Below, piece by piece: positions 13,521-36,459 of a DNA stretch of 48,710 nt (positions are counted from its first letter, which is position 1; the number at the start of each line of letters is the position of its first letter). The DNA is from Tepidiphilus sp. J10. Its GTDB lineage: Bacteria > Pseudomonadota > Gammaproteobacteria > Burkholderiales > Thiobacillaceae. Made by a program: the position numbers and the translations under genes. Location of the stretch: the NCBI GenBank assembly GCA_945897955.1, contig CAMDGQ010000029.1:1-48710 (forward strand), given 5' to 3'. The notes under the pieces are model-generated. The model saw nothing but the letters and a program-made list of their open reading frames with translations, did no database searches and had not been told where the DNA came from.

Positions 13521-13724
13521 GGTTGAATTGCGCCCAAATCCGACCCGGGGATTGCACTGAATATTGAGCCACCTGGATAAGCCAATGTACGGCTCAGCTT
13601 GGCAGTGATTTTCTGGTTTTAGCCGCCTTGCCGGTCAGGGTTGAGCGGTTGCGGAAGCGGTCACTCCGTTGCCGGTTTCCAGGATATGGCAGTGGTGCGT
13701 CAGCCCTACGAATTCGCTTCACAT

Positions 13725-16700
13725 TCACCGGGCTTTCACCCTCAACTCGACGTTGTGGTCCCGATGATCGTCCACCATGGGAATGGCCGGCGTATTCAGC
13801 TCAACCCCATCAACGCTGAGACCTGCCGTACCGTCCTGCACAACGCTGATGTGATACACCGTTTCGCGGAAGCGGTAATGCAGCTTGAAGCCCGGCCAGT
13901 GAGCCGGCAAGCAGGGGGTGATGTGCAGCTTGTCCACTTCCAGGCGCAATCCCAGCAGCGATTCGACGATGAGCCGGTACATCCAGCCGGCGGAGCCGGT
14001 GTACCAGGTCCAGCCACCGCGGCCGGTGTGGGGCGATACGGCGTAGATGTCGGCGGCCATGACATAGGGTTCCACTTTGTAAACCGCGATGGCGTCGGTG
14101 GATTTGGCGTGGTTGGCGGGGTTGATCAGGGTGGTGATTTCCCAGGCGCGGCGGTTGTCGCCAAGTGCAGCGAAGGCCATTGCCGCCCAGATCGCGGCGT
14201 GGGTGTACTGGCCGCCGTTTTCGCGTACACCGGGCACGTACCCTTTGATGTAGCCGGGGTCGAGGTCGGTCTGGTCGAACGGCGGGTCGAGCAGTTGCAC
14301 CAAGCCCGCTTCGCGGCGGACCAGGCGTGCGTCCAGCGCCTGCATGGCGCGGCGGGAACGCTCGCTGCTGTTGACTCCCACCGAGATGCCGGACAGCACC
14401 GACCAGCTTTGCGATATGGAGTCGATCTGGCATTCGCTGTTGCCGGCCGATCCCAGCGGCGTGCCGTCGTCGAACCAGGCGCGGCGATACCAGTCGCCGT
14501 CCCAGGCGTGCTGTTCGATGTTGTCGCGCAGACGCTGGCCTTCGGTTGCGCAGAATTCGGCGAAATCGGGGTCGTCGTGTTGCTGCGCCAGTGTGCCGAA
14601 CTGGCGCAGCACTTCGATCAGGAAGAAGCCTAGCCAGACGCTTTCGCCCTTGCCGTGGATGCCGACTCGATTCATGCCGTCGTTCCAGTCGCCGGAGCCG
14701 ATCAGTGGCAGGCCGTGTTCGCCGAAGCGCATGCCATAACGGATGGCGCGAAGGCAGTGTTGATACAGGCTTTCCGTGCCCGAGGCTGAGCCGGGCAGGT
14801 CATAGTAGGACTCGTCGTCCGGATTGAGCGGGCGGCCTGCCAGGAACGGCACAGCTTCCTCCAGCACGCCGGTGTCGCCGCTGCACAGCACATAGCGGCT
14901 GGTGGCCAGCGCCAGCCACAGGTAATCGTCGGAACAATGGGTGCGCACGCCGCGTCCGGCGGGCGGATGCCACCAGTGCTGCACATCGCCTTCGCTGAAC
15001 TGGCGACTGGCGCTCAACAGCAGTTGCGCGCGCAGCAAGCCGGGTTCGTTGTGCACCAGCGCCATCGCATCCTGCAACTGGTCGCGGAAGCCGAAGGCGC
15101 CGCCGGACTGGTAATAGCCGCTGCGCGCCCACATGCGGCAGGCCAGGGTTTGATACAGCAGCCAGCCGTTGGCCAGTACGTTGAGCGATTCATCCGGCGT
15201 TTCCACCTGCACCGCGCCCAGGCTGTGGTTCCAGAACGCCCAGACCGCTTCCAGCGTGCGACGGGCGGCGTCGTTGCCACGGAAGCGATGCACCAGACGA
15301 TTGGCGTCTTCAGCACCCGGTATGCCTCCCACGCCCAAACGGAACACGATCTCGCGCGTCTGCCCGTCGCCCAGATTGACGCCGACCTGCAGCGCGCAGC
15401 ACGGGTCCAGCCCGCTGCCCAGCTTGCCGGAAAGATGCGTGCGGCCGAGTGCCGCCGGGTTTTTCAGGCTGCCGTTGCGGCCGATGAATTCGGCGCGGTC
15501 GCAGGTGAAGCTGCGCTGCGGGTCGTCCACATCAAAGAAGGCGACGCGGTCGGGAAATTCCGTGTTGTAGGCATTGCGCGCGTAGATCGCGCCGCTGGCG
15601 GCATCGACTTCGGTGGCGACGTGCATCGCGGTCTTAGGCCGTAGATCGCCCAACACCCATTCCACATAGCCAGTGGCCGACAGACGCCGCGCGCGGCCGG
15701 ACTGGTTGTGTAGTTTGAGCACGGCGAACTTCACCGGCGCGTCGGTGGCGACATAGATCCACAACTCGGAATGGATGCCGCTTTCGGTATGTTCGAACAC
15801 GCTGTAGCCGAAGCCGTGCCGGCTGACGTAAGGCGTCGCACCGCGCCGGGGCAGCGGCGTCGGTGACCAGAACTGGCCGGTGTCCTCGTCACGCAGATAG
15901 AACGCTTCGCCGCCGGTGTCGCTGACCGGGTCGTTGTCCCATGGCGTCAGGCGGAATTCGTGCGCGTTCTCGGCCCAGGTGTAGGCCTGGCCGCTTTCGG
16001 AAATGACGCTGCCGAATTGCGCATTGGCCAGCACGTTGACCCACGGCGCCGGAGTCAGTTGCTCCGGCGTGGTGGTGATGACGTATTCGCGACCATCCGG
16101 CGTGAAACCGCCGATGCCGTTGGCCAGGATCAGCTCGCGTTGCGGCAAGTTGAAGGCGGCGGGCAATTCTGGCCTTGGCACCTTCCACGGCAATCTTGGC
16201 ACGCGCACCACCGGCGGCAAGGGGCGGTCGAGTTGTTCCGCCAGCGTGCCCCAGTTGTCGCTCAGAATGACGCGGGCGACGGTCTGGAACAGCGTGCGGT
16301 CTTCCTCGGAAATCTGCTCCGCCGAACGGATGAAGATGCCGCCCGGCCGGTCGATGATCTGGCTTTCCAGGCCCACCGCGACCAGGCCGAGAATCTGGTC
16401 CTGCAAGGCCTGGCGATAACCGGCGCGATCCTCGTTCCAGATCACCAGGTCGACCACCAGCCCCTTCAGCCGCCAGTAGGCATGCGCCTGAATCAACTGG
16501 CGCACCAGTTCGATGTTGGCCAGGTCGCCGATCTGCAGCAGCACGATCGGCAGGTCACCGGAAATGGCATAGCCCCAGAGGCCGGACTGGCCGCGCCGGT
16601 TCTTCATCAAGACGCCGCTGTCGGCGCGCAAGCCGGCATGCGCGTAGAGGATCGAATTCGCCAGACGCCCGTAAAGCTGGGCGTCGGCCTCGTTGGCGTT

Positions 16701-19700
16701 GATCTGGCGCAACAGCACCTGGGCGTGGGTCCAGGCCAGCTCGAAGACGCGATCGGCTAGCCGGCGATCCTGATATTTCTCGACCAGATTGAGCACCGCC
16801 GCGCGGCTGTCGCCGATACCGAACACCAGATCGATGCTGGCCGACTGTTCCGGCTGCAGCGTGATGCGGCAGCGGATCGCGACAACCGGGTCGAGCACCG
16901 AACCCTGGCTGCCGGACAACGCGCCATCCTGCTCCATGGCCTGCGGCGACGCGGCGATACGGCCGCGACCGATGAAGCGGGCGCGATCCGTTTCGAAAGA
17001 CAGTGATTCGACCTCGGCATCGTGTACCGACATCAGATGGAACAGCCAGGGAGAATGCTCTTCGCGCGAGCGTGGCCGCCGGGTGCAGAGGATGGCCTGG
17101 CGCGATTCGATGATCTCGCTCTGCACGAACAGATTGCTGAAGGCCGGATGCAGCGCATCGGCGGCGGGTGTCGCCAGCACCACTTCGGCATAGCTGGTGA
17201 TTTCGATCGTGCGCGGCGCGTCGCCCCGGTTGGTGATGCGGACCCGGCGCAATTCGATGTCGTCTTCCGGCGAGACGACGATATCGGTGTGGGTCTCCAG
17301 ATCGAAGTCTTCGCCCCGGCTATGGCTGCCAACATCATGCCGGCGGAATTCGGCGCGGCCTTCCGAGAAGATCGCTTCGTAATGCGTGGCGCGGCGCTGC
17401 GTCGGCTGGTGCGCGGTGGACCAGGTCGCGCCGCTGGCCACGTCATGCAGATAGGTGAAGGTGCCCCAGGCATCGCGCACGCTGTCTTCCCGCCAGCGTG
17501 TCACCGCCAGGTCGTTCCAGCGGCTGTAACCGCCGCCGGTATGGGTCAGCATGACGTGATAGCGGCCATTCGACAGCAACTGTACTTCCGGTGTCGGCGT
17601 ATCCAGATTGCGCAAAACGCGGATCGGCATTTCCGGTGTGCTGGTGCCGGTATCGATGCCGGTCAGTTCGGCGGTTTGGGCGTACAGCAGCGAAGCGCGC
17701 GGGATGCGTTCCTGCAGCAGCAACAGCGTCGATTGCAGCAGCGGGTCGGCGGCAAAACGTTTCTGCATCGGCCGATCCAGCAACAGATAGGCCAGCGCCA
17801 GCAGGCTCATGCCCTGGTGATGCACCATGTAGGAGCGCACCAGCGTCTGTTTTTCGCCGCGTCGCTGACGCAGCGGCGTGTAGTCGATCGCCTCGTGAAA
17901 ACCGAAGGCGCCTTCAGCCCCGGCCGCGGACAGCCGTTGCAGATTCAGGCAGGCCGCTTCCGGCGCCACCATCAGCGCCATCACCGAAGCATAGGGCGCC
18001 ACCACGCGATCTTCGCCGAGGCCGCGTTTCAGTCCCAGGCCGGGCACGCCGAACGCGCGGTATTGATAGTTGAGCTGCAGATCGACCGTGTTGTAGCCGG
18101 ATTCCGAGACACCCCAGGGCAGGCCGAGTTGCTGGCCGTATTCGATCTGCCGCGCCACCGCCGCGCGCGCGGTCTGGTCGAGTAGGGTGTGGTCGTAGGT
18201 CGGCATCACCAGTTGCGGCATCAGGTACTCGAACATCGACCCGCTCCACGACAACAGAATCGGTTCACCGCCGGCGCGGGTGAGCAGACGTCCGAGCGCG
18301 AACCAGCTCTCCTGCGGCAACTGCCCCTGCGCGATGGCGACGAACACGGCGAGACGCGCTTCCGATGCCAGCAGGTCGTAGAAACTGCTGTCGCGCCGCC
18401 GCTCTTCCACGCTGTAGCCGATGACAAGTTGGCGTGCCGCCTTGTCGTACAGGAAACCGTATTCCATGTTGGCCATTTCACCGGCCTGCAACGCCAGTTG
18501 CTCGATGCTGGCGATACGCGCCCGGGCATGCGCGCTGCCTTGTTCCAGATCATTGGCGAGGGTATTGAGCCACTGGGTCTGGGCTGAAGATGTGCTTGCA
18601 TCGAGCCGGCTTGCCAGGCGGTCCGACCAGGCCAGTTTCAGCCCGGCCAGATCGCGCAAGGTCGGTATCAGGTTGATATCGTCAAAACCGCCCAGCCCGA
18701 CCGGGGCTTCCGGCAGGCCGCTCCAGGGCGCGAGAAAGATCAGTTCCTCGCGCATCGCCTGACATTGCCGGGACAGTGCGCCGGCCCACCAGTTGGCCTG
18801 GTTTGCCGGCTCATTGGCAAAATCGTCGGCGAATTCGTCAATGATCGCAGTGGCGTAGCGCGCCAGCCGGTCGAACAGATGCCGAGCCGCTACCAGTGTG
18901 AGTTCGTAGGGCGGAAAAGCCGGCGGGGTTTGGCCGGCGCCTTCCGCCGTATGAGCGGCCCACCTTCCGGCGGAAGGCGCGATAAAACTGCTTTTCCGCC
19001 CTACGATCTGCGCGGATTCCAACGCCATCTTGAACTGCGTCACCGTCGCCGGTGTCGGTTGGCCCGCCGCCGCGATCAGGATTCCCAACGTGTCGCGCAC
19101 GCCGTCCAGCGTGCGCGGCGACAGGATCTGCTGGTCCAGCAAGGCCAGTAGGCCGGGGCGTAAAGTCAGCAGATGGCCGGCCAGATTGCCGCTGTCCACC
19201 GTCGAGATGTAAGCCGGGTGCAGCGGACGCAGGGTTTGCGTGTCGTACCAGTTGTAGAAATGGCCGCGATGGCGTTCCAGCCCGGCCATGCTGGTCAGCG
19301 CGTTGGCAGTGCGTTCGAGCAGTTGCCCGGTCGGGATGTAGCCGAAATCATGCGCCGACAGATTGGCCAGCAGCGACAGGCCCATATTGGTCGGCGAGGT
19401 GCGATGCGCCAGCGTGGCGGCGCGGTACTCCTGGTAATTGTCCGGCGGCAGCCAGTGGTCGTCCGGGCCGACGAAAGTCTCGAAATACGCCCAGGTCTTG
19501 CGCGCGATGCGGCCGAGGAAACGCGTCTGTTCCGCGCTCAGGCGCGCCACACGACGCGGCAGCGGCAGGCTGAGCCACCAGACGATGGCGGGGGACAGCA
19601 GCCACAGCAACAAAATCGGCCCGGCCAGCGGCAGCGCGGCCGGATTCATCACCACCAGCCAACTTGCCGTGGCGATGGCCAGCGCGGGCGCGAACGCCAT

Positions 19701-22574
19701 GCCGTGCAATACAGCGAGCGGATCGTCGCGGCGGCTCGGGTCTTGATCGCCGGAGGCTTTCCATTCCAGCAGCCGTTGCTGCGTGAACAGCAATCGGCCG
19801 AGCGTGCGCAGGGCCGCATCCAGGCTGTAAGCCGCTTCATGCGGCAATGTCACCAGCGCAAATCCGGTTTGCAGCAGGCGCTGGACGGCGGCGTGCGCAG
19901 TTGCCGCGAAATGCTGGCCGGGGCGCATGTCGGTCGGTTTGCGCAGCACATCCAGCAGGCTGGAAAGCACCGGCGGTATCAGCAGAATGCCGAGTACCGC
20001 CAGGGTCCAGAACAGGGGCGAAGCAAACAGCGTCCAGCCTAGCAGCAACAGCAGCGTCAATGCCGCCGGCACCAGACTGCGGCGCAGGTTATCCAACAAC
20101 TTCCAGCGCGACAGCAGGGTCAGCGGATTTCGCTGCCAGCGCCCATTCGCCCCCGGCGCCCAGGGCAGCAGCCAGGCGACGAGCTGCCAGTCGCCGCGGA
20201 TCCAGCGATAGCGTCGCTCCACGTCGGCGCCGTAGCGGGCCGGATATTCCTCGTACAACTGCACGTCGCTGAGCAAGCCGGCGCGGGCGTGGCAGCCCTC
20301 CAGCAGGTCGTGGCTGAGTATGCGATTTTCCGGGAAGCGGCCGGACAGCGCCTGTTCGAACGCGGCAACGTCGTAAATGCCCTTGCCGATGAAGGAACCT
20401 TCCTGGAACGCGTCCTGATACACATCGGACACCGCCCGCGTGTACGGGTCGATGCCCGGCTCGCCGCTATTCAGGCGGGCATAGCGCGATTGATTGGCGA
20501 CCGGCAGGCTGGAGCTGACGCGCGGTTGCAGGATGCCGTAGCCGGCGCGGACGCGGCCCAGTACCGGGTCATAGATGGCTTGATTGAGCGGGTGCGCCAT
20601 GGCGCCGATGAATTGCTGCGCGGCTTCGCGCGGCAACTGCGTGTCGGTATCCAGCGTGATGACATATTTCACGCCGGCCAGGCTGGCGATGTCGCCGATC
20701 AGCAACGAGAAAGCATCGGATCGACCTGTGCGCAGCAAGGTGTTCAGGTCCGCCAGCTTGCCGCGCTTGCGCTCGTAGCCCATCCAGATGCGGTCATGCG
20801 GGTTCCACCGGCGCGGGCGATGCAGCAGAAAGAAGACATCATCTCGGCCCGCCGCGTATTGCGTGTTCAACGCAGTGATACGCTCCGCCGCCAAGGCCAG
20901 CAATGACGCGTCTTGCGGCAGGGTTTCCTCGGCGGCATCGCGAAAATCGGTCAACAGCGCGAAGTGCAGATGGGCATTGCGATTGGCCAGAAAACGCACT
21001 TCCAGCGCCTCGACCAGATGCTCGACGTTTTGCGGGCTGCTCAGCAGCGTCGGCACCGCCACCAGCGTGCGGTATTGCGGCGGGATGCCGTTGGAAAAAT
21101 CCATGCGCGGCAGCGGCCGCGGCGACGCCAGCGAGGTGGTCAGCCAGTTCACCAGCGCGGTCGCAAGCTGGCCCGTGGCGAGCAGGGCGAGGAGGCCGGT
21201 CAGCAGCAACACCCAGACGTTGACGCCGTTCAGCCAGGCCCGCGCCACCAGCCCGGCGCTGAGCAGCAGCGTCAACAGCGTGATCGCGCCGAGATACCAC
21301 AACAAGGGGGTCCGGCTGGCGCCGCGCCGCAGCCGGGTGGTGAACGGCAAATGCGCGCCACAAGCCTGTTCCAGCTCGTGGCGGCCGCGGTCGATCAGGT
21401 AATAACCGACATGCGAGCGGCGGTCGGTTTTTCCCAGCGTTTCAGCGCTCGCTCGTGCCAGCTCAATGGCCTTGTCGGCCACGCTGGCTTCCGCCAGCTT
21501 GCTGGTGTTGACGCACACCTTGGCGATGGACTCCACCATGTGGCGATAGCCGTCGCGGCTGGCGAAATCCATGCTGGCGTAGGCCACGGCCGGATCGTTG
21601 CGCAACGTACTGTCGACCACGCTCATCGCCTCGACGAACTCGCGCCAGTCCTGCGTGCTCAACAGGCGCAGGCTGCCGATGCTGTTGCTGATCGAAACCT
21701 GATCGGCGGCTTGCTGCTGGTTGCCGGCGCGCACCACTTGTTCGATGTTGAGCCCGCCATCGGCCAGTTGCTGCTCGATCCAGGTCAGCGGTAGGCTCAG
21801 TGACGGACCCTGGCCTTGCAGGCGACGCGCCAGTTCCGAGATGAACGGCGGCGACATCGGTGGTTTCGAGTGCGCCATGTCGGCGATCACCAGAATCAGA
21901 TTTTTCGGATCCCGATGCGAAATCTCGCTCAGCGTCTCCGCCCAGCCGACGGCCAGATCGCGTTCCCTTCTGCCCGCCGAAATGCGCACCGCCACTCGGC
22001 GCAGATTCTCGATCAACGCCAGACGCAGCATGATCGGAATTGCCCACAACTCACCCAGGCGCAACGGCGTCACGGTCTGATAAGTGGCGACAAAGCGGCG
22101 CAGGCTGTCCGGGTCGACGCGTCCGTCGCCATGCGCGATGGTTTCCAGCGCGATGTCATATACGCGAGGCAAGCCGCTGGAAACGCCATCGGCCAGGCTG
22201 GGCAGCTCGCGGCTATAGCCCCTGGGCAAGTGGCGGCGGGCGGTGCGTATCTGTTCTTCGATCAGATACAGGTTGTCGAGCAGCCATTCGGCGGCCGGGG
22301 TGATGCGGTGCTTCGCCGCCACCGCCAGAGTGAGTTGGCGGCAGGTCTCGACCAGCACCGCCTCGTTGGCATCGAGTCGCGCCAGCAACTGGTCCGGCTG
22401 CCGTCCCACTGCGATGCGGTGCGCGTCGGCCAGGCGTGCGCCGTGCTGCGCCATCTGGTCGGCGCTGAACAGCTCGGCGCGCAGCGGTGCTTCATCAAGC
22501 GATGCATTAGGTGGCATGCCGCGACTGCGCAGCCGCGATTTGATCTGTCGCCAATATTCGGGGAGCTTTACCAT
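13725..22574 (-). CDS. ndvB: cyclic beta-1,2-glucan synthase-like protein (NdvB/Cgs family)
   Basis: About 2,949 residues from the ATG at 22574, roughly 100 longer than rhizobial NdvB/Cgs. These are inner-membrane enzymes that make periplasmic cyclic beta-1,2-glucans from UDP-glucose, used in osmotic adaptation. An N-terminal region precedes membrane segments near 430-500. The GT84 glycosyltransferase follows, with DTDT at about 642-645 and RYRWIRGDWQ further on; more membrane segments lie after it. The large C-terminal half has carbohydrate-binding and GH94 phosphorylase-like domains, with GDWNDG at 2628-2633 including the expected catalytic Asp. Residues about 1191-1224 (VGRKSSFIAPSAG...PPYEL) are encoded by a palindromic repeat element lying in frame. 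The gene begins 10 bases after the stop of the PerM gene, so they form an operon. Confidence 0.9.
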   Translation of the reverse strand: MVKLPEYWRQIKSRLRSRGMPPNASLDEAPLRAELFSADQMAQHGARLADAHRIAVGRQPDQLLARLDANEAVLVETCRQLTLAVAAKHRITPAAEWLLDNLYLIEEQIRTARRHLPRGYSRELPSLADGVSSGLPRVYDIALETIAHGDGRVDPDSLRRFVATYQTVTPLRLGELWAIPIMLRLALIENLRRVAVRISAGRRERDLAVGWAETLSEISHRDPKNLILVIADMAHSKPPMSPPFISELARRLQGQGPSLSLPLTWIEQQLADGGLNIEQVVRAGNQQQAADQVSISNSIGSLRLLSTQDWREFVEAMSVVDSTLRNDPAVAYASMDFASRDGYRHMVESIAKVCVNTSKLAEASVADKAIELARASAETLGKTDRRSHVGYYLIDRGRHELEQACGAHLPFTTRLRRGASRTPLLWYLGAITLLTLLLSAGLVARAWLNGVNVWVLLLTGLLALLATGQLATALVNWLTTSLASPRPLPRMDFSNGIPPQYRTLVAVPTLLSSPQNVEHLVEALEVRFLANRNAHLHFALLTDFRDAAEETLPQDASLLALAAERITALNTQYAAGRDDVFFLLHRPRRWNPHDRIWMGYERKRGKLADLNTLLRTGRSDAFSLLIGDIASLAGVKYVITLDTDTQLPREAAQQFIGAMAHPLNQAIYDPVLGRVRAGYGILQPRVSSSLPVANQSRYARLNSGEPGIDPYTRAVSDVYQDAFQEGSFIGKGIYDVAAFEQALSGRFPENRILSHDLLEGCHARAGLLSDVQLYEEYPARYGADVERRYRWIRGDWQLVAWLLPWAPGANGRWQRNPLTLLSRWKLLDNLRRSLVPAALTLLLLLGWTLFASPLFWTLAVLGILLIPPVLSSLLDVLRKPTDMRPGQHFAATAHAAVQRLLQTGFALVTLPHEAAYSLDAALRTLGRLLFTQQRLLEWKASGDQDPSRRDDPLAVLHGMAFAPALAIATASWLVVMNPAALPLAGPILLLWLLSPAIVWWLSLPLPRRVARLSAEQTRFLGRIARKTWAYFETFVGPDDHWLPPDNYQEYRAATLAHRTSPTNMGLSLLANLSAHDFGYIPTGQLLERTANALTSMAGLERHRGHFYNWYDTQTLRPLHPAYISTVDSGNLAGHLLTLRPGLLALLDQQILSPRTLDGVRDTLGILIAAAGQPTPATVTQFKMALESAQIVGRKSSFIAPSAGRWAAHTAEGAGQTPPAFPPYELTLVAARHLFDRLARYATAIIDEFADDFANEPANQANWWAGALSRQCQAMREELIFLAPWSGLPEAPVGLGGFDDINLIPTLRDLAGLKLAWSDRLASRLDASTSSAQTQWLNTLANDLEQGSAHARARIASIEQLALQAGEMANMEYGFLYDKAARQLVIGYSVEERRRDSSFYDLLASEARLAVFVAIAQGQLPQESWFALGRLLTRAGGEPILLSWSGSMFEYLMPQLVMPTYDHTLLDQTARAAVARQIEYGQQLGLPWGVSESGYNTVDLQLNYQYRAFGVPGLGLKRGLGEDRVVAPYASVMALMVAPEAACLNLQRLSAAGAEGAFGFHEAIDYTPLRQRRGEKQTLVRSYMVHHQGMSLLALAYLLLDRPMQKRFAADPLLQSTLLLLQERIPRASLLYAQTAELTGIDTGTSTPEMPIRVLRNLDTPTPEVQLLSNGRYHVMLTHTGGGYSRWNDLAVTRWREDSVRDAWGTFTYLHDVASGATWSTAHQPTQRRATHYEAIFSEGRAEFRRHDVGSHSRGEDFDLETHTDIVVSPEDDIELRRVRITNRGDAPRTIEITSYAEVVLATPAADALHPAFSNLFVQSEIIESRQAILCTRRPRSREEHSPWLFHLMSVHDAEVESLSFETDRARFIGRGRIAASPQAMEQDGALSGSQGSVLDPVVAIRCRITLQPEQSASIDLVFGIGDSRAAVLNLVEKYQDRRLADRVFELAWTHAQVLLRQINANEADAQLYGRLANSILYAHAGLRADSGVLMKNRRGQSGLWGYAISGDLPIVLLQIGDLANIELVRQLIQAHAYWRLKGLVVDLVIWNEDRAGYRQALQDQILGLVAVGLESQIIDRPGGIFIRSAEQISEEDRTLFQTVARVILSDNWGTLAEQLDRPLPPVVRVPRLPWKVPRPELPAAFNLPQRELILANGIGGFTPDGREYVITTTPEQLTPAPWVNVLANAQFGSVISESGQAYTWAENAHEFRLTPWDNDPVSDTGGEAFYLRDEDTGQFWSPTPLPRRGATPYVSRHGFGYSVFEHTESGIHSELWIYVATDAPVKFAVLKLHNQSGRARRLSATGYVEWVLGDLRPKTAMHVATEVDAASGAIYARNAYNTEFPDRVAFFDVDDPQRSFTCDRAEFIGRNGSLKNPAALGRTHLSGKLGSGLDPCCALQVGVNLGDGQTREIVFRLGVGGIPGAEDANRLVHRFRGNDAARRTLEAVWAFWNHSLGAVQVETPDESLNVLANGWLLYQTLACRMWARSGYYQSGGAFGFRDQLQDAMALVHNEPGLLRAQLLLSASRQFSEGDVQHWWHPPAGRGVRTHCSDDYLWLALATSRYVLCSGDTGVLEEAVPFLAGRPLNPDDESYYDLPGSASGTESLYQHCLRAIRYGMRFGEHGLPLIGSGDWNDGMNRVGIHGKGESVWLGFFLIEVLRQFGTLAQQHDDPDFAEFCATEGQRLRDNIEQHAWDGDWYRRAWFDDGTPLGSAGNSECQIDSISQSWSVLSGISVGVNSSERSRRAMQALDARLVRREAGLVQLLDPPFDQTDLDPGYIKGYVPGVRENGGQYTHAAIWAAMAFAALGDNRRAWEITTLINPANHAKSTDAIAVYKVEPYVMAADIYAVSPHTGRGGWTWYTGSAGWMYRLIVESLLGLRLEVDKLHITPCLPAHWPGFKLHYRFRETVYHISVVQDGTAGLSVDGVELNTPAIPMVDDHRDHNVELRVKAR
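18905..19005. repeat. 101-bp palindromic repeat element inside ndvB
   Basis: The ends are perfect 15-bp inverted repeats, CGTAGGGCGGAAAAG and CTTTTCCGCCCTACG. Inside is a second inverted pair, GGCGCCTTCCGCCG against CGGCGGAAGGCGC. The element relates to copies at 28954-29049 and 36345-36459. It lies wholly inside the glucan synthase frame without adding a stop. Left-end sequence (as its reverse complement) and the right half of the third copy agree at most of 49 positions. Confidence 0.85.
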
Positions 22575-22584
22575 GGTGAGCCCT

Positions 22585-23748
22585 TTAGTCCCCCAGCAAT
22601 TCAGCCACCGGTTCAAGTTGCTCGACATGCTGCGCCACCACTTTGATCAGCACCGTGATCGGCATGCTCAGCAACATGCCCCAGACACCCCAGAGCCAGG
22701 TCCAGAACAACAGCGAAACGAACACCGCCGCGGTATTCATGCGGGCGATGCGACCGGTCAGCCAGGTGGTGATGAAGGTGCCGACGAGGGTCGCGATCAG
22801 CAGCGAAACGCCGGCAGCCAGCAACGCCGGCGTCAGGCTGTCGAACTGCAGGAAGGCGACCATGCCGATGGCGGCGGCGGTAACGGCCGGACCGAAGTAG
22901 GGGATGACGTGGAGCAAACCGGCGGCTACCGCCCAGGCGCCGGCGTTATCGAGGCCGATCCAGCGCAATGCGAACCAGGTCAGCAAGCCCACCAGCACGT
23001 TGGTCGCCAGCAGCATCAGCATGTAGCGCTGGATCGAGGCGTTGATGTCGTCGAGGATATGGACGGCGATCTTCTTGTTCGACAACGAAGGTCCGGTGAG
23101 TCGCACCAGCTTGCGCTTATAGGTGTCGCCGGAGAGCAAAAGAAAATAAGTCAGGAACAACACCATGGCGGTCTGGCCGATCATCCCGGCCGCCCCCATC
23201 GAGCCCGACCACAGGATATCGCCGAATTTGAAGCCGGGCGTCTCGATCACCACGCGCGTCGCGCGCTGTTTCTGCGGTATCGCCATGCCGGCTGCCTGGC
23301 TGGTCGCTTGCTCCAGTTCGCTGGCGGCGGTCTGGATCTTCTGCATCGTGCTGTCCCGGCCCTGACGCAGACTGGCGACCCCGGTCGACAACTCGCTCAC
23401 CGCCGCCGGCAGTTGTTCGAGGATGGTCCGCACCTGACCGCGCAAGGCGAAACTGCCCAGCACGAGCGCAGCCACGCCCGCCGCCATGATCAGCGTGGCG
23501 CCCGCCACACGCGGAATCTTGATCCGCTCCAGCCAGACCACCAGTGGGTTGAGGGTATAGGCGAACAGGATGCCGACGAGCAGGGAAATAACGAAGCTCT
23601 GCGCCCACTCCAGCGCAAAGACCACCGCCACCGTGGCCAGGATGGTCAGCGCCAGGCCATGTCCGGCGACCGGCAAGCGGATGGCGGCTGGTTGCGTAAT
23701 GGGCTCGTTGCTTTGCGCAACTTCCGCTTCAGACATGGCAACCGGCAT
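22585..23748 (-). CDS. AI-2E/PerM-family membrane transporter
   Basis: 387 residues, a polytopic membrane protein of the AI-2E transporter (PerM/TqsA/YhhT) family. An N-terminal polar stretch of about 28 residues is followed by pairs of membrane helices (about 30-70 and 80-105), a long extramembrane segment (about 105-190), then the conserved C-terminal helices with NVLVGLLTWFALRWIG and LHVIPYFGPAVTAAAIGM. Family members export small molecules, exchange Na+ or have unknown substrates; an AI-2 role should not be assumed. ATG 23748 has AAGGTGG upstream and lies 2 bases after the yihY-like stop. Its stop is 10 bases before ndvB. Confidence 0.88.
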   Translation of the reverse strand: MPVAMSEAEVAQSNEPITQPAAIRLPVAGHGLALTILATVAVVFALEWAQSFVISLLVGILFAYTLNPLVVWLERIKIPRVAGATLIMAAGVAALVLGSFALRGQVRTILEQLPAAVSELSTGVASLRQGRDSTMQKIQTAASELEQATSQAAGMAIPQKQRATRVVIETPGFKFGDILWSGSMGAAGMIGQTAMVLFLTYFLLLSGDTYKRKLVRLTGPSLSNKKIAVHILDDINASIQRYMLMLLATNVLVGLLTWFALRWIGLDNAGAWAVAAGLLHVIPYFGPAVTAAAIGMVAFLQFDSLTPALLAAGVSLLIATLVGTFITTWLTGRIARMNTAAVFVSLLFWTWLWGVWGMLLSMPITVLIKVVAQHVEQLEPVAELLGD

Positions 23749-23750
23749 GG

Positions 23751-24725
23751 CTATCCACCTTTTGGATCGGGCGGCGCCGGCTGCAGGCTGCCGAACCCCA
23801 GTGCGTACTGGCGAGTGAATTCCGCCCCGAGAAAGAAAATCTGCGCCGAGTAATACACCCAGAGCAGCAAGGCGATCAGCGACCCGGCGGCGCCGAAGCT
23901 GGAAGCGACACCACTGTTGCCCAGGTAGAGGCCGATGGCATATTTGCCCAGGCTGAACAGCCCGGCCGTGAACAGTGCGCCGATCCAGACGTCGCGCCAG
24001 GACAGCGGCGCATCCGGCAGCGTCTTGTAGATCACCGCGAACAGACCGGCGATGACCGCGAAAGAAATACCCGATGTGGTGGTTGTGAGCATTTCATACG
24101 AACCGCCCCATATTTCGCCGGCATAGCGTTCGAACATGGCCAGCACGGCGCTGATCACCAGCGAGACCAGCAGCAGAAAGGCCAGCACCAGCACCAGACC
24201 GAACGACAGCAGCCGGGTTCGCACCAAGATGCGGAAAACCGACCGGCTCGATTCTTCAATGCCCCACAACTCATCCAGACTGCCCTTCAACTCGACAAAG
24301 ACACTGGTGGCGGCGAGCAGCAGCAGCACGCTGGCGACCAGCGTCGCGATCAGGCCGGAAGCGGGGTTGCGCGCGCCGGCCAGCAGGGCTTGCACAGCCT
24401 GCGCGCCATTCGGCCCGATCAAGCCTTCCACCTGGGCGACGATCTCGCCCTGCGCCGCCTCCGCGCCGAAGAAATAGCCGGCGAACGCGATCGCCAGCAC
24501 CAGGATCGGCGTGATGGAAAACAAGGTATAGAAAGCCAGCGCGGCGCCCTTGCTGTCAGCCCGATGATCAAACCAGGATTTCAGGGACTGGATCAGGACG
24601 ATCTGAAAACGCCTGATCCATTGTGCAGGTGCGAATGCATTCGTACAGCCACGCTTGATTGTTCGAATGGATTCGTATCTACCCTCAGACTCACGCTGGA
24701 ATTGAGGTTGCAAAACAGCCTCCAA
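23751..24725 (-). CDS. YihY/BrkB-family inner-membrane protein with a repeat-derived N-terminus
   Basis: YihY/virulence-factor BrkB family membrane protein, once wrongly called ribonuclease BN. Six membrane helices start at KGAALAFYTLFSITPILVLAIAFAG. Family landmarks seen are SLDELWGI and SFGAAGSLIALLLWVYYSAQIFFLGAEFTRQYA. The start is a problem. There is no ATG, GTG or TTG between the conserved body and the palindromic repeats, so the frame must begin upstream at TTG 24725, or elsewhere upstream, and read through a 65-bp repeat unit (residues about 13-34). The normal family start would fall near residue 34. Translation may begin at a rare codon, or the 5' end may have been replaced by the repeat pair. 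It precedes the PerM gene by 2 bases. Confidence 0.8.
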   Translation of the reverse strand: MEAVLQPQFQRESEGRYESIRTIKRGCTNAFAPAQWIRRFQIVLIQSLKSWFDHRADSKGAALAFYTLFSITPILVLAIAFAGYFFGAEAAQGEIVAQVEGLIGPNGAQAVQALLAGARNPASGLIATLVASVLLLLAATSVFVELKGSLDELWGIEESSRSVFRILVRTRLLSFGLVLVLAFLLLVSLVISAVLAMFERYAGEIWGGSYEMLTTTTSGISFAVIAGLFAVIYKTLPDAPLSWRDVWIGALFTAGLFSLGKYAIGLYLGNSGVASSFGAAGSLIALLLWVYYSAQIFFLGAEFTRQYALGFGSLQPAPPDPKGG

Positions 24726-24805
24726 ACGGTTGCAGTTGGCCCGACTGTAGGTGCGAATTTATTCGCACAATCAACAGCTTGCGTGCGAATGAATCTGCAC
24801 CTGCA
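24624..24805. repeat. inverted pair of 65-bp palindromic units (REPIN-like)
   Basis: Two 65-bp units, 24624-24688 and 24741-24805, are inverted copies of each other around a 52-bp middle. Each unit holds two 18-bp palindromes of the form GTGCGAAT-NN-ATTCGCAC, starting at 24629, 24661, 24751 and 24783; the one at 24751-24768 is perfect. Within both pairs the spacing is 32 bp. The layout is that of a REP doublet. One unit overlaps the presumed coding start of the yihY-like gene. Confidence 0.88.
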
Positions 24806-24867
24806 TCCTTAACGCAAGCAATTGAAATTTCACATCATTCCACGCCAACTGCGGTTATTGAGTTGAC

Positions 24868-25194
24868 TTACTTGAGACGCATATCGTTGGTGACGCCCTT
24901 CACACCGCCGACGTTGCGCGCCAGTTCAACCGCCTTGTTTGCCGAGGCCTGCGAACTGACGAAGCCGCTCAACTGGACGACACCCTTGAAGGTCTCGACG
25001 TTGATTTCGGTCGCCTTGGTCAGGTCATTCTCAAACAGCGCTGCCTTGACCTTGCCGGTGATGACGCTGTCATCGATGTACTGGCCGGCGCCTTCAGTCG
25101 TCGGCGTGGATGAGCAACCCACGACGGAGCCCATCGTAAAGGTCACTGCAGTGGCCAGGAAAACAGCGGAAAGGTATTTGTTGACTTGTTTCAT
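24868..25194 (-). CDS. BON-domain lipoprotein
   Basis: 108 residues from ATG 25194, which has GGAGA upstream. The signal peptide ends in a lipobox (SVVGC, C27), so it is a predicted lipoprotein. One BON domain spans about 39-106, with DDSVITGKVKAAL, TEINVETFKGVVQLSGFV and the closing VKGVTNDM. BON domains bind membranes or phospholipids and occur in OsmY and DolP; single-BON lipoproteins are usually tied to osmotic or envelope stress. It lies among other stress-type genes. No partner gene is coupled to it. Confidence 0.9.
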   Translation of the reverse strand: MKQVNKYLSAVFLATAVTFTMGSVVGCSSTPTTEGAGQYIDDSVITGKVKAALFENDLTKATEINVETFKGVVQLSGFVSSQASANKAVELARNVGGVKGVTNDMRLK

Positions 25195-25412
25195 GGTGAT
25201 TCTCCAGATGGTTGTAATAAAGGGTTTCTCCAGCACGCTGTCGGAACCTGATTGGCAGCGTAGAGGGATAGGGCGGGGCGCTCGGTACGCTTCCGCACAT
25301 AACGAAATTATTTTTCTTGTGCGGGTGCGAAGCCGCAGGGCGAACTTCAAGCGGTCGATCAGGGATCAGGTCAAGCCGGATAGTGGTTGGGATGGCGTGC
25401 ATGGCAGCATGC

Positions 25413-25619
25413 CTATTTCAACGCGGATTCCCGCTGCACCCGCAGATTGCCTTCCCAACTGCAGCCGAGGGAGCCGCAGCGGAAGCGGTAGACCGGCATG
25501 AAAAAATTGACGAAGCGATCGAACGGTCGCCGTTGGACGCGGTGTGCCGCGCCGCTGCAGCAGGGGCATATGCCGCTGTAGGCTCCTGGCGCCGGGATCA
25601 AATGGGCAAGACTCGTCAT
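25413..25619 (-). CDS. small zinc-ribbon-like protein
   Basis: 68 residues from ATG 25619, with AAGGA upstream. Two cysteine groups, C18-P-C20-C21 and C48-(4)-C53, flank a basic stretch (RRPFDRFVNFF) and a YRFRCGSLGCSWEGNL segment. This pattern recurs in short proteins of proteobacteria with CxxC, a run of basic residues and a YRCxxCxWxG-like ending. Zinc binding is inferred from cysteine spacing. Function is unknown. Confidence 0.6.
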   Translation of the reverse strand: MTSLAHLIPAPGAYSGICPCCSGAAHRVQRRPFDRFVNFFMPVYRFRCGSLGCSWEGNLRVQRESALK

Positions 25620-25709
25620 GCATAAAGTCCTTTCAGGAATAGGCGGCCCCGATGCTGTTCACGGCGACGTGCCGCGCCCAGATCAAGGCCGGAGAGCGTG
25701 GATTGCAAG

Positions 25710-25913
25710 TCAGTCCTTGCTGCTCTCTTCAAACTGCTTGATCTGCTTTTCGGCTTCATCTTTTGTGATGCCATAAGCTTCCTGAATCTTGCCCGTCAGC
25801 TCGATGCGCTTGCCGGCGATTACATCGAGATGGTCGTCGGTCAGTTTGCCCCACTGCGCTTTCACTTTGCCTCTGAATTGGTTCCAGTTGCCTTCAGCGA
25901 TATCCCAGTTCAT
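25710..25913 (-). CDS. CsbD-family stress protein
   Basis: 67 residues, small and strongly charged, matching CsbD throughout: MNWDIAEGNWNQFRGKVKAQ, WGKLTDDHLDVIAGKR and a Lys/Glu-rich ending. E. coli YjbJ belongs here. CsbD genes respond to general stress (sigma-B in Bacillus, RpoS in enterics), but their molecular role is unclear. A strong ribosome site, AAGGAGA, lies 5 bases before ATG 25913. A stress role fits the BON and crystallin genes on both sides. Confidence 0.93.
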   Translation of the reverse strand: MNWDIAEGNWNQFRGKVKAQWGKLTDDHLDVIAGKRIELTGKIQEAYGITKDEAEKQIKQFEESSKD

Positions 25914-26127
25914 TTCAATCTCCTTGTGTTTGCATTCGACCGGCGGAATCGCCCATCGAGCATCCTTCGTCGCCGCAGGCCGTTGCACATAGGACAGCGG
26001 CAGGCCTGACTGATTCTGGAATTCCGGATGCAGATTGCAGGCTGATCGCAAATCCGGCGTTAGTCGGTGCGTTGGCGAACATGACACGACGGTTTCGCGC
26101 TGCTGCCCGCTCTTCTTCCGCCGCACG

Positions 26128-26157
26128 CAAGCGAAACGGCCCCGCAGGGCCGTTTCG
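26128..26157 (-). terminator. strong hairpin downstream of the crystallin-domain gene
   Basis: AGCGAAACGGCCC (26128-26140) and GGGCCGTTTCGCT (26145-26157) form a perfect 13-bp stem with a 4-base loop, 20 bases beyond the stop of the minus-strand gene. Only a short TT follows on that strand, so termination strength is uncertain. Confidence 0.65.
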
Positions 26158-26177
26158 CTGCATTTGCACCCTTTGGC

Positions 26178-27101
26178 TTATTCCCTGGGTTCGCCGAGCT
26201 CGTTGACGGTGACGCTGGGGCCCGGATTGGCGGTCATCTGCAGGCGATGTTCGCGGCCACGGAAGGTGTAGCTGACATCCCAGTATTCGGGTTTGGCATA
26301 GCGGTGGGTGTTGGCGCAATGCTGAACATCCTGGGTTACCACCTCCTGTTCGTTACGGTCGCGATTGATGTTGGCGCCCAGCAAGGCACCGCCTACCGCG
26401 CCACCGGCCGTGGCAAGGTCCTGGCCGCTGCCGCCGCCGAACTGGTGGCCGAGGACGCCACCGATCAAGGCGCCGACAATCGCCCCGGGGGCGTTTGAGC
26501 GAGATTTTTCCTGCACGACTTGTTCGCGTTCGACCCAGCAGCGCTGCTCGGGCGGTCCGACTACCGCGCGCACCGACGTGACGTTCGCTTCGTAAGTCCG
26601 CTCGTTGTAGCGGCGGTGAAAATCGTAGGGTGCTGCCGGCCTGGTCAGATAGGGATTTGCATTCGGATGAGAGTTGCCAAAATTGCGCGCATCGGAGCGC
26701 TGATGCTGATCCGCTGCCACGCTGGGCTGCTGCAAATAGGGGTTGTTATGAGGTTTGGCCATGGGATGACCATTACCATTTTGGATATGGCTCATCAGCC
26801 GCACCGATGAAACACTGTTGTTCAAGCCCATATCGCCCAACGAGGCATATTTACCCGGACGCAGGAAGACGCAGCGTCCCTCAAACCGGGCATCTTCGCA
26901 AACCTGCCACCAGTCACGGTCAACCACGACTGACGAAGCGCGGTCATTGAAGCCAATTTTTTTGAAATTTTCGATCTGTTGTTCGGTATTGAAGGATCGA
27001 CCTTTGAAGTCTTCACGTTCGTAAAAAGTGACTTCCGCAGCCGCTTGAGTGGCGAAAGCCACACCGGCCAGCGCCAGCGCGTTTCTCAAAATTGCATTCA
27101 T
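26178..27101 (-). CDS. exported beta/gamma-crystallin plus glycine-zipper (17-kDa antigen-like) protein
   Basis: 307 residues from ATG 27101, with AGGAG upstream. A signal peptide ends near AAA (about residue 22). Residues about 24-105 form two beta/gamma-crystallin Greek-key motifs: VTFYEREDFKGRSF ... IGFNDRASSVVV and WWQVCEDARFEGRCVFL ... LNNSVSSVRL. A long Asn/Pro/His-rich linker follows. Around 203-240 is a Gly-zipper pair (GAIVGALIGGVLGHQFGGG, then GGAVGGALLGANI) of the Rickettsia 17-kDa antigen/SlyB type, which inserts in or spans membranes. The last 65 residues, with YWDVSYTFRGREH, are a typical tail of this family. Crystallin domains often bind Ca2+; a stress-protective outer-membrane role is inference. 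Confidence 0.85.
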   Translation of the reverse strand: MNAILRNALALAGVAFATQAAAEVTFYEREDFKGRSFNTEQQIENFKKIGFNDRASSVVVDRDWWQVCEDARFEGRCVFLRPGKYASLGDMGLNNSVSSVRLMSHIQNGNGHPMAKPHNNPYLQQPSVAADQHQRSDARNFGNSHPNANPYLTRPAAPYDFHRRYNERTYEANVTSVRAVVGPPEQRCWVEREQVVQEKSRSNAPGAIVGALIGGVLGHQFGGGSGQDLATAGGAVGGALLGANINRDRNEQEVVTQDVQHCANTHRYAKPEYWDVSYTFRGREHRLQMTANPGPSVTVNELGEPRE

Positions 27102-27523
27102 GAATTTCTCCTGAGGGATAAAGATAGGTCTGAAGCCGAGGTTGACGGGATTGCGACCCCGACCGTCGAGGCAATCAGGCAACCATCATTGCGAGTCTTT
27201 GCGCCGCAGTCTGTGCGGGCACGAACATAGCGAATCGGTATCGCCCCCGCGAAGGTGAAACAGGGAGTAGGAGCGTCCGCTTGCGGCACGATTTCCTGCG
27301 CGGTTCGCGCCAGGCGCAGTCAATCGCCGTCTTTGTAATTCCTTGTGTTCGCTAACGAACTGAACTGCTTGGGTATTCGGTACAAGCTATCCATGTACTG
27401 ATTGCGGCATCCGGATCGGACCGGTCGGTTATTGAGTCGGATCGCTATTTCCGTGAATCCGACGCTCCCGCGCAGGTGGGAGCCCAGGGTCGGTCGGCTG
27501 CGCAATGAATTGCTGGAGGCTTG
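27102..27523. other. divergent intergenic region with candidate operator
   Basis: This 422-bp stretch separates the minus-strand crystallin gene from the plus-strand phospholipase-D gene, so it should hold both promoters. No clear coding frame is visible. A palindrome GTTCGCTAACGAAC lies at 27347-27360. GTAGGAGCGTCCGCTTGCGGCACGA-like sequence from 27267 resembles one arm of dispersed palindromic repeats. GCTCCC (27464-27469) pairs with GGGAGC (27478-27483). No confident -35/-10 pair was found. Confidence 0.4.
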
Positions 27524-28933
27524 ATGATCTCGTCGTTCCTGAATTTTCTGCCCGCGTGCCGATGGCTGGCCATCTCACTGCTCCTGCTGGCGGGTTGCAG
27601 CAGCTTGCCGAAGATCGTGCCCGATCTGGCGCGGCATCCCGGCCTGCCGGTGCAGATGGAAGGCGCGCGTGGCGCGCTGTCGGTGGCGCAAACCAAGGCG
27701 ATTCTCGGTCGGCTGGAAAGTCACAGTGTGGAGACCGGCATCTTCGAGCGCCACCTGGCGGTCGAAGAATCCATCGTCGGCAGTCCGCTGACCACCGGCA
27801 ACGATGTGCGGTTGTTGCAGGACGGTCCGGCCACCTATCAGGCGATGTTCGCGGCTATCGACGCGGCGGTGGACCATATCAACCTGGAAACCTACATCCT
27901 GGACGACGACGAGATCGGCCAGCGTTTCGCCCAGGCATTGATCGCCAAGCAACAACAGGGCGTGCAGGTCAACCTGATGCACGACAGTGTCGGCACCATT
28001 GACACCCCGACGGACTTCTTCCAGCAACTGACCGACAGCGGCATCCAGGTACTCGAATTCAATCCGATCAACCCTTTGGAGACGCGCAAGGAATGGACGC
28101 TGAATCAGCGCGACCACCGCAAGTTGCTGATCGTCGATGGCAGCACAGCGTTTCTCGGCGGCATCAACATCAGCAGCGTCTACTCTGGTGGTTCGTTCAG
28201 CAAGCGGTTACGTCTCAAGCCCGACCGCGGACCCGACGGCCGCCTGGCCTGGCGCGATACCGACCTGCAACTGCAAGGGCCGGTAGTGGCCGAGTTCCAG
28301 AAACTATTCATCAGCGCCTGGGAAAACCAGAAGGGCGCGCCGCTGGCCGAGAAGAACTACTTTCCGCCGCCCAAAATCGCCGGCGACCAAGTGGTGCGCG
28401 CGATCGGCAGTTCGTCCGAAGAACCATTCAGCCTGATCTATGCCACGCTGCTTTCGGCGATCGGCAGCGCCGAAACCAGCGTGCATATCACCAACGCCTA
28501 TTTCGTTCCCGACCCGCAATTGCTCGCAGCGCTCGAAGCCGCCGCCCGGCGTGGCGTCGGCGTCACCCTGATCCTGCCAAGCCGAACCGATTCCTGGCTG
28601 GTGTTCCACGCCGGGCGCGGCTACTACGCGCGGCTGTTGCGCGCGGGCGTGAAAATCTTCGAGCGGCGCGGTGTCATCCTGCATTCCAAGACGGCGCTGA
28701 TCGACGGCGTCTGGGCCACGGTCGGCTCGACCAACCTGGACTGGCGCAGCTTCCTGCACAACCACGAGTTGAATGCTGTGGTGCTCGGCTCGGCGTTCGG
28801 CAAACAGGTGCAGGCGATGTTTGCCAAGGATCTGGCGATGTCCGATGAAATCACTTTGGAGCAGTGGCGCAAGCGCGGGCTCAATCCGCGCCTGAAGGAG
28901 TGGTTCGCCCGGGTCTGGGAGTACTGGCTATGA
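27524..28933 (+). CDS. phospholipase D / cardiolipin synthase-like lipoprotein
   Basis: 469 residues. ATG 27524 is preferred because GGAGG sits 4 bases upstream; TTG 27521 is too close. A lipoprotein signal ends at C25 (LLLLAGCSS). Two HKD motifs form the active site: H198-K200-D205 in DHRKLLIVDG and H387-K389-D394 in ILHSKTALIDG, each followed by G[GS]xN (LGGINIS, VGSTNLD). This is the cardiolipin-synthase/ClsB-like layout with no N-terminal membrane helices. It likely hydrolyses or transfers phosphatidyl groups; synthesis of cardiolipin versus other PLD activity cannot be decided. A role in membrane adaptation would suit the stress genes next door. Confidence 0.88.
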   Translation: MISSFLNFLPACRWLAISLLLLAGCSSLPKIVPDLARHPGLPVQMEGARGALSVAQTKAILGRLESHSVETGIFERHLAVEESIVGSPLTTGNDVRLLQDGPATYQAMFAAIDAAVDHINLETYILDDDEIGQRFAQALIAKQQQGVQVNLMHDSVGTIDTPTDFFQQLTDSGIQVLEFNPINPLETRKEWTLNQRDHRKLLIVDGSTAFLGGINISSVYSGGSFSKRLRLKPDRGPDGRLAWRDTDLQLQGPVVAEFQKLFISAWENQKGAPLAEKNYFPPPKIAGDQVVRAIGSSSEEPFSLIYATLLSAIGSAETSVHITNAYFVPDPQLLAALEAAARRGVGVTLILPSRTDSWLVFHAGRGYYARLLRAGVKIFERRGVILHSKTALIDGVWATVGSTNLDWRSFLHNHELNAVVLGSAFGKQVQAMFAKDLAMSDEITLEQWRKRGLNPRLKEWFARVWEYWL

Positions 28934-29068
28934 ACCTGCCCGGTAGCGAAACACGTCGGGCGGAAAAGCGGCCTTATCGCGCCTTCCGCCGGATGTTGCT
29001 CATGCGGCGGATAACGCCGGCAAAAGGACGCCGGCTCACCCGTCCTACGCAAGCTGGCTATGAACCTG
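28924..29068. repeat. palindromic repeat copy flanked by a direct repeat at the PLD/CheB-CheR junction
   Basis: A second copy of the GGCGGAA/TTCCGCC palindromic family spans 28954-29049 (starts CGTCGGGCGGAAAAG, ends CCTACG). CTGGCTATGAACCTG occurs at 28924-28938 and again at 29054-29068, and similarity continues for about 15 further bases. The first copy contains the phospholipase-D stop; the second contains an ATG in frame with the CheB/CheR gene. Confidence 0.75.
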
Positions 29069-29158
29069 ACACGCAGCGGCGAAGCACTCAAGCAGCCGGC
29101 GAAATTCGATGGAGTACTATCGAACGGCAGTGCGCCAGCCAGGCGCCGGGATGAAGTC

Positions 29159-36344: not shown

Positions 36345-36459
36345 CGTAGGATGGGCCAAGCGGAGCATGTAGTGCTGAAAAGCGATAGCGCCTTCCGCCA
36401 ACGCTCGCTGCATACGGCGGAAGGCGCCGGCAAGAAACCGCCGGCTTTTCCGCCCTACG
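36345..36459. repeat. third copy of the GGCGGAA/TTCCGCC palindromic element
   Basis: It runs from CGTAGGATGGGCC to CTTTTCCGCCCTACG, with an internal pair GCGCCTTCCGCC / GGCGGAAGGCGC. The right half nearly equals the reverse complement of the left half of the copy inside ndvB. It fills most of the gap between the GGDEF gene and the PerM gene. Confidence 0.85.

Follow-up and report, generated by a model that had tools for sequence, protein, structure and literature searches.

A GTAG-type REPIN lying in frame within a betaproteobacterial cyclic glucan synthase gene

The host gene and its palindrome

The window analysed here, a stretch of 48,710 nucleotides, carries on its minus strand an open reading frame of 2967 codons with a single, terminal stop (13725–22628). 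The 2967-aa product contains GH94 and glucoamylase-type Pfam domains and matches cyclic glucan synthases of known structure (PDB 8rf0, 8rf9 and 8wy1); by similarity to these Cgs/NdvB enzymes it is a cyclic beta-1,2-glucan synthase (NdvB/ChvB/Cgs-like). Within this gene lies a palindromic repeat of 101 bp (18905–19005) which is read on the minus strand, in frame, as (I)VGRKSSFIAPSAGRWAAHTAEGAGQTPPAFPPY(E). It occupies codons 1208–1242 counting from the ATG at 22628. The initial annotation had recognised the same site, but its numbering of residues about 1191–1224 fits a start at Met19. Its statement that the repeat adds no stop and keeps the frame of an NdvB-like gene agrees with the single terminal stop of the ORF. 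The idea that the insert may explain the extra length of the protein is weaker, with a net gain of about 31 residues and an open frame of 2947 already present in the element-free relative G006.

The outer arms of the palindrome (18901–18920 and 18990–19009) pair at 19 of 20 positions, including a perfect stretch of 17 bp (18904–18920 and 18990–19006). Nested between them is a second palindrome whose arms, 18937–18949 and 18968–18980, pair at 13 of 13 positions. Each half of 18905–19005 starts on its own strand with GTAG, followed by a palindromic stem-loop. Folded as single-stranded DNA, the 101 nt reach −40.2 kcal/mol compared with −22.7 ± 2.7 for 200 shuffled sequences, none of which folds as well (z = −6.4). 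We thus find two close inverted units that fold as one hairpin, as in a REPIN: REP unit 1 (CGTAGGGCGGAAAAGC...CTTCCGCC) at 18905–18948 on the plus strand and the inverted REP unit 2 at 18969–19005 on the minus strand, with boundaries placed according to the arms. Terminal inverted repeats as in a classical MITE are present in the form of the perfect 17-bp arms. No target-site duplication was found in the flanks of this copy, the other junctions having been inspected by eye only. Because of its GTAG ends, its organization as an inverted doublet and the lack of a target duplication at the cgs copy, the element is REP-like (a REPIN) rather than a classical MITE. Arm pairing and fold confirm the palindrome with inverted ends and inner palindrome first described; the ends are indeed perfect but longer than the 15 bp then given, and of the proposed MITE- or REP-like nature the REP-like part stands.

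Between the two helices flanking the site, the window protein has 36 residues. The best 80 of 580 named homologues, a set from which the nearest records are possibly missing, have only 3–9 (five residues in 72, six in 4, three in 2, eight in one and nine in one), so that about 31 residues appear to have been gained. An alignment of 23 sequences drawn from the genus, family and order shows the element in five of them (C29, which is the window's own contig, its identical twin in G002, C70, G013 and G012) and its absence in 18; the G046 match, which aligned only as two pieces, was left out of this region alignment. A gap in homologues had been named at the outset as the mark of an insertion made after the gene evolved. 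The stretch is absent from all of the best 80 of 580 named homologues and from 18 of the 23 aligned relatives, and the lack of the insert in outgroups supports this order of events. Homologues having the residues without the palindrome, the case that would have spoken against the insertion, were found neither among the best 80 of 580 nor among the 23 aligned relatives. The stretch 18905–19005 is a real in-frame REPIN insertion in cgs.

The surrounding part of the protein, residues 1055–1640 (17709–19466, minus strand), was modelled from an alignment of 45 sequences with a mean pLDDT of 81.4. Its best structural match is the cyclization domain of 8wy1 (Foldseek, query TM 0.80–0.82). In the model the insert lies between helices 140–157 and 191–215, with pLDDT below 50 at model positions 162–185 (protein residues 1216–1239). 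No aligned homologue covers the insert and low confidence is therefore expected there, so that the low pLDDT is only suggestive of disorder. With this proviso the model suggests a disordered loop between two confident helices, in line with the loop initially proposed for the coded stretch.

The repeat family and its other insertion sites

The repeat is dispersed in the genome. At up to three mismatches the 15-mer occurs at six places in the window where 1.35 are expected, and none of 100 shuffles reaches six. In G000, the genome bin of the window, GTAGGGCGGAAAAGC is found at 84 places at up to two mismatches, compared with nine for the reversed pattern. The two intergenic relatives noticed initially are both family-1 REPINs between ORFs, one at 36369–36458 and one, partly degenerate, at 28954–29049 (one mismatch in unit 1, right half degenerate). 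At the position of the former, the spacer in G002 measures about 30 instead of 150 bp and lacks the element, a presence/absence difference. REP-like remnants were also seen at 13700–13709, next to where the glucan synthase gene ends and not far from the limit of synteny with relatives, and at 41171–41185, the latter of the GTAGGGTGGATAAGC type.

The exact 15-mer is present in 10 of 399 genomes drawn from the order, comprising four of the six genus members drawn and six genomes of other families. Near-consensus complete doublets occur in 11 of 23 genus genomes, some of which are incomplete, at 1–31 each (reversed control: 0): 31 in G010, 20 in G005, 17 in G012, 11 in G018, 8 in G000, 4 in G013, 2 in G016, and one each in G002, G007, G017 and G022, with none in the other 12. 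When more mismatches are allowed, 19 complete family-1 doublets are found in the stretches fetched from G000. Four lie in genes, all in frame, and 15 are apparently intergenic as judged by ORF composition. One of these 15, the C80:468–620 doublet, lies within a 131-codon ORF that just passes the filter and was judged spurious. A second family (GTAGCCCGGATGNAG) is found in G000 at 49 places at up to one mismatch, compared with none in the control; three of its 13 doublets in the fetched stretches lie in genes, all in frame, two more overlap only an N-terminus and the others are apparently intergenic. The fetched stretches represent part of the 84 family-1 and 49 family-2 places and genes were called from ORF length and codon-position G+C (glcF failed this filter and was recognised by eye), which makes the intragenic counts approximate. 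Judged by the fetched G000 stretches, family 1 as a whole is mostly extragenic, as are REPINs in general, and the cgs copy itself is intragenic. In the RepRanger report REPs are described as seldom overlapping coding regions (PMC12306157).

In the genus, in-frame REPINs of family 1 or 2 are also present in earP, glcE, glcF and two MmeI-like methyltransferase genes. The glcE gene of G000 contains a family-1 element of 89 bp with a net gain of 78 nt relative to G013, so about 11 nt of the target were lost; it is absent from 11 other aligned homologues and also, in a second comparison, from G013, G002, G021 and G006. The rows of G022, G005 and G010 had merged with a neighbouring homologous gene in this second comparison and were left out of it, these genomes being covered by the first. 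Within earP, a family-1 element occupies one shared site in G013 and G012 and none is found in the other nine aligned sequences. The earP gene of G021 carries a decayed copy (alignment score 81.2 compared with 40.7 ± 4.7, the best of 2000 shuffles reaching 60.4) which has lost most of its left arm with the frame kept. In the MmeI-like gene on G000:C26, a family-1 element is matched by a partial copy at the corresponding position of the G013 protein; G011 and G010 have none there. The C26 gene (L215 2612–5647) contains a second in-frame REPIN, of family 2, and hence two families in one gene; close to this second site, a related coding repeat is seen in the homologue of G011. A further MmeI-like gene, located on C119, contains an in-frame family-2 element, no element-free homologue having been aligned in this case. 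The family-2 element of glcF is found at the same site in G021 and is absent from five other homologues. The neighbouring genes glcF (L216 4144–5871) and glcE (L078 1487–2605) thus contain one in-frame REPIN each, of different families.

Several candidates were not counted as coding: lipA of G018, where the element lies upstream of the LIAS domain and probably before the start; a long ORF on G005:C20 with the element near its start; the ORFs on G010:C162 and G010:C225, which match no Pfam family; an antisense-looking ORF of 587 codons; and the family-2 cases L281 and L286, in which the 15–18 codons before the element were treated as upstream sequence. An Rrf2 gene on G010:C74, an N6/N4 methyltransferase ORF on G017:C11 and a short ORF on G018:C211 also stand outside the coding count.

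TnpA-REP is reported to recognise GTAG and to cleave nearby (PMC8266576). A RAYT gene flanked on both sides by exact family-1 REPs was not found. G000 yielded a single Y1 transposase (L031); it scores 63.6 bits against a cut-off of 80 for REP_Tyr_transpos, and it was rejected as the cognate RAYT since its 3.3-kb locus contains no family-1 REP. Among 29 further Y1 loci scanned, out of a larger number of matches, the Y1 gene has family-1 REPs in its vicinity at one locus of G005 (L222) and at two of G012 (L224 and L244). The G005 locus has a family-1 REPIN about 90 bp after the Y1 gene and none before it on the contig. Directly upstream of this transposase gene lies a short CRISPR-like array with the repeat GACTGAATCACAGACCTGAAAAAGAAGGGATTAAGAC (L222 1–210, G005:C60). 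Both G012 loci were discarded as family-1 cognates; to judge from reading the sequence, a third repeat (GTAGGTGCGAAT...) seems to be the cognate of L224, and the GTAGGGTGGATAAGC family that of L244. A plasmid search returned three partial matches and was uninformative.

Copies at the same site and selection on the insert

In-frame cgs copies stand at the same site in four lineages, C29 of G000 (identical in G002), C70 of G000, G013 and G012, with GTAG-to-CTAC lengths of 99, 90, 111 and 90 bp, respectively. The frame is kept in every length variant: a 533-residue region measures 1599, 1614, 1638 and 1578 nt in the same order, all multiples of three and free of stops. The G000 bin contains two syntenic cgs regions of about 87% identity (the window and L094 on C70), probably from two species, and C70 probably belongs to a sister species though binned with the window. 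Window positions ~14501–31000 are 99.9–100% identical to G002 contig C7, and 13722–14500 are 95.6% identical. In the scan, positions below 13722 were without a match in G002 C7, and beyond ~31000 identity is 77–92% where matched. This block would reflect either a recent between-species recombination or a chimeric contig.

The cgs tree, calculated with the insert left out, is ((C29,(C70,G013)),(G012,(G021,G017))), in which each of the two groups has a support of 100 and the C70–G013 pair one of 87. The REPIN-bearing G012 is grouped with the REPIN-free G017 and G021 and the REPIN-bearers do not form one clade; therefore a single insertion requires loss or local transfer. The left halves of the cgs copies are of two types which do not follow the gene tree. 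In the 50-codon window before the insert, the identity of G012 to C70 and G013 is 0.887 and 0.867 compared with 0.82 and 0.84 to G021 and G017; in that after the insert the values are 0.804 and 0.826 compared with 0.768 and 0.775. This hints at a local transfer of the filled site. It is only a hint because, of the ten windows compared, two non-flanking ones (1100–1150 and 1443–1493) also favour C70/G013 and one is a tie, the remaining five pointing the opposite way. A REPIN scar in the 42-nt cgs segments of G017 and G021 is not claimed: local alignment to the four REPINs gave p = 0.0045 in one of eight comparisons and 0.10–0.87 in the other seven, with 0.11–0.43 in four comparisons for the control G006.

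The cgs gene minus the insert has a dN/dS of 0.14–0.20 in six pairs. The insert gives 0.76–1.28 in five pairs and 3.6 in the sixth (C70–G012, with 0.5 synonymous and 5.5 nonsynonymous changes), noisy values obtained over 31–35 gapped codons; for this last pair, dS is 0.02 in the insert versus 0.46 in the gene. To judge from these ratios the host gene is under purifying selection, the insert hardly. The left half and the centre of the insert are more variable than the right half. Fourteen codons of the right REP (42 nt) show no difference at all among the four lineages, with 1667 of 2840 third positions invariant elsewhere; 8 of 2826 fourteen-codon windows are equally conserved at third positions, the stretch having been selected with the alignment in view. 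The two loop codons between the stem codons of the right REP differ among lineages. Since the right stem codons are invariant while the insert is hardly constrained by dN/dS, what is conserved seems to be the palindrome at the DNA level and not its amino-acid reading.

Two of the three phases of the elements are mostly free of stops, which may help explain why such an insert is tolerated. For 33 distinct elements considered on both strands, the GTA GGG phase is open in 48 of 66 cases and the third phase in 44 of 66, as against one of 66 for the TAG phase. This corresponds to 2.82 open frames per element compared with 2.17 ± 0.17 in dinucleotide shuffles.

Origin of the insert and its meaning

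We consider it highly probable that the insert is a mobile REPIN tolerated within a helix–helix loop of the cyclization domain, and that it is its DNA, not its protein sequence, which is conserved. A non-autonomous mobile palindrome of two inverted GTAG-type REPs, probably mobilised in the past by a RAYT (a HUH Y1 transposase) acting in trans, would have entered the cyclic glucan synthase gene in an ancestor belonging to this betaproteobacterial genus, where it replaced or enlarged the 5-residue loop. One original insertion would have been followed by recombination or conversion between copies. The copy may have survived because there is no stop in this phase, the frame remained intact and only a floppy loop was added. 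The loop would be translated and the peptide selectively neutral, which means that the cell probably makes about 31 extra and seemingly unneeded amino acids in its glucan synthase.

One step of this scenario is disputed by the idea that independent insertions occurred at one hotspot in several lineages instead of once in an ancestor. The non-monophyly of the REPIN-bearers on the gene tree, the two types of left halves and the fact that 11 of 78 element sides have AAC ahead of GTAG, versus a background of 1.2% (shared-site copies being counted repeatedly) would fit such a hotspot. However, the junction codons are identical across copies and G012 is nearer to C70/G013 than to G021/G017 in both windows flanking the insert, the hint of local transfer mentioned above; we regard repeated insertion as a possible but doubtful alternative. 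An artefact of assembly or binning would have to be invoked against the recurrence of the element at one site in four diverged sequences, of which one has an identical counterpart in a second genome. The G000 bin consists of 128 contigs with 4.93% contamination and does contain a second syntenic copy of the region, yet we can hardly give credence to this explanation.

Two further alternatives concern the reason why the insert persists. The palindrome might be kept for a DNA or RNA role in the gene (an mRNA hairpin, attenuation, gyrase or protein binding), as its very stable fold and the nucleotide-level conservation of the right-stem codons next to variable loop codons could suggest. The same pattern is predicted by conversion between copies or transfer, which we favour as the cause of the right-stem conservation; in addition, presence of the element is patchy and the earP copy of G021 lost most of its left arm with the frame kept. 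Such a role appears unlikely. Even less likely is exaptation of the peptide, selected as a functional part of the synthase in ring-size control or partner binding. It was kept in frame in four lineages, in all of which HTAEGAG and PPAFPPY are identical, but REPINs in earP and other genes encode much the same peptide, amino-acid changes per site are about as frequent as synonymous ones, the insert is variable in length, and it is missing from 18 of the aligned relatives and from each of the best 80 of 580 named homologues. The tolerated, neutral REPIN accordingly remains our preferred reading. A more general proposal is offered tentatively: in this genus two REPIN families might keep adding peptide inserts to conserved enzymes, the coding copies staying live members of the REPIN population whose palindromes are refreshed by conversion or recombination at the DNA level, with the host gene forcing change to be in frame. 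After the REPIN population dies out, a copy would decay to ordinary protein sequence, as perhaps in earP of G021.

Intragenic GTAG REPs have already been published. Their occurrence within ORFs as monomers, dimers and clusters is described for several species (Di Nocera, De Gregorio, Rocco 2013, PMC3733652), with the suggestion that they are neutral in loops or linkers. The cgs insert resembles these cases in being a GTAG-tagged REP dimer within an ORF, there coding for 20–30 aa, and in its probable position in a loop, loops and linkers being the tolerant sites proposed; different REPs at about the same recB site in two Xanthomonas species recall the shared-site copies. It differs from the cases we drew from that paper in its occurrence in an uncultured betaproteobacterial genus, in the host genes (cgs, earP, glcE, glcF and MmeI-like genes) and in the comparison made here of element-free and decayed homologues, dN/dS and a structural model. 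With the REPINs of Pseudomonas fluorescens SBW25 (Bertels and Rainey 2011, PMC3116915) the element shares the inverted REP doublet, the hairpin and the many dispersed copies. As far as we draw on that study, the SBW25 REPINs were analysed in extragenic space, whereas the cgs copy is part of a coding sequence and a flanking cognate RAYT did not turn up in G000. The palindromic elements of Rickettsia, as portrayed in a review (PMC10969869), likewise stand within unrelated genes with the frame intact, and different species have them in common; they are about 150 bp long compared with 101 bp here, and the likeness is one of description. A search of the open-licence literature by title, with subscription journals mostly outside its reach, revealed no report of an in-frame REPIN in a cyclic glucan synthase. 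As an addition to the published intragenic cases, the cgs insert comes with unusually complete comparative evidence.

Proteins do gain new segments, but where these come from can rarely be seen. In this case the DNA that gave rise to the segment can still be recognised, close relatives provide empty, filled, length-variant and decayed states, and the same event has affected several enzymes. For these reasons the way in which mobile DNA becomes a protein loop can be tested stepwise in free-living bacteria.
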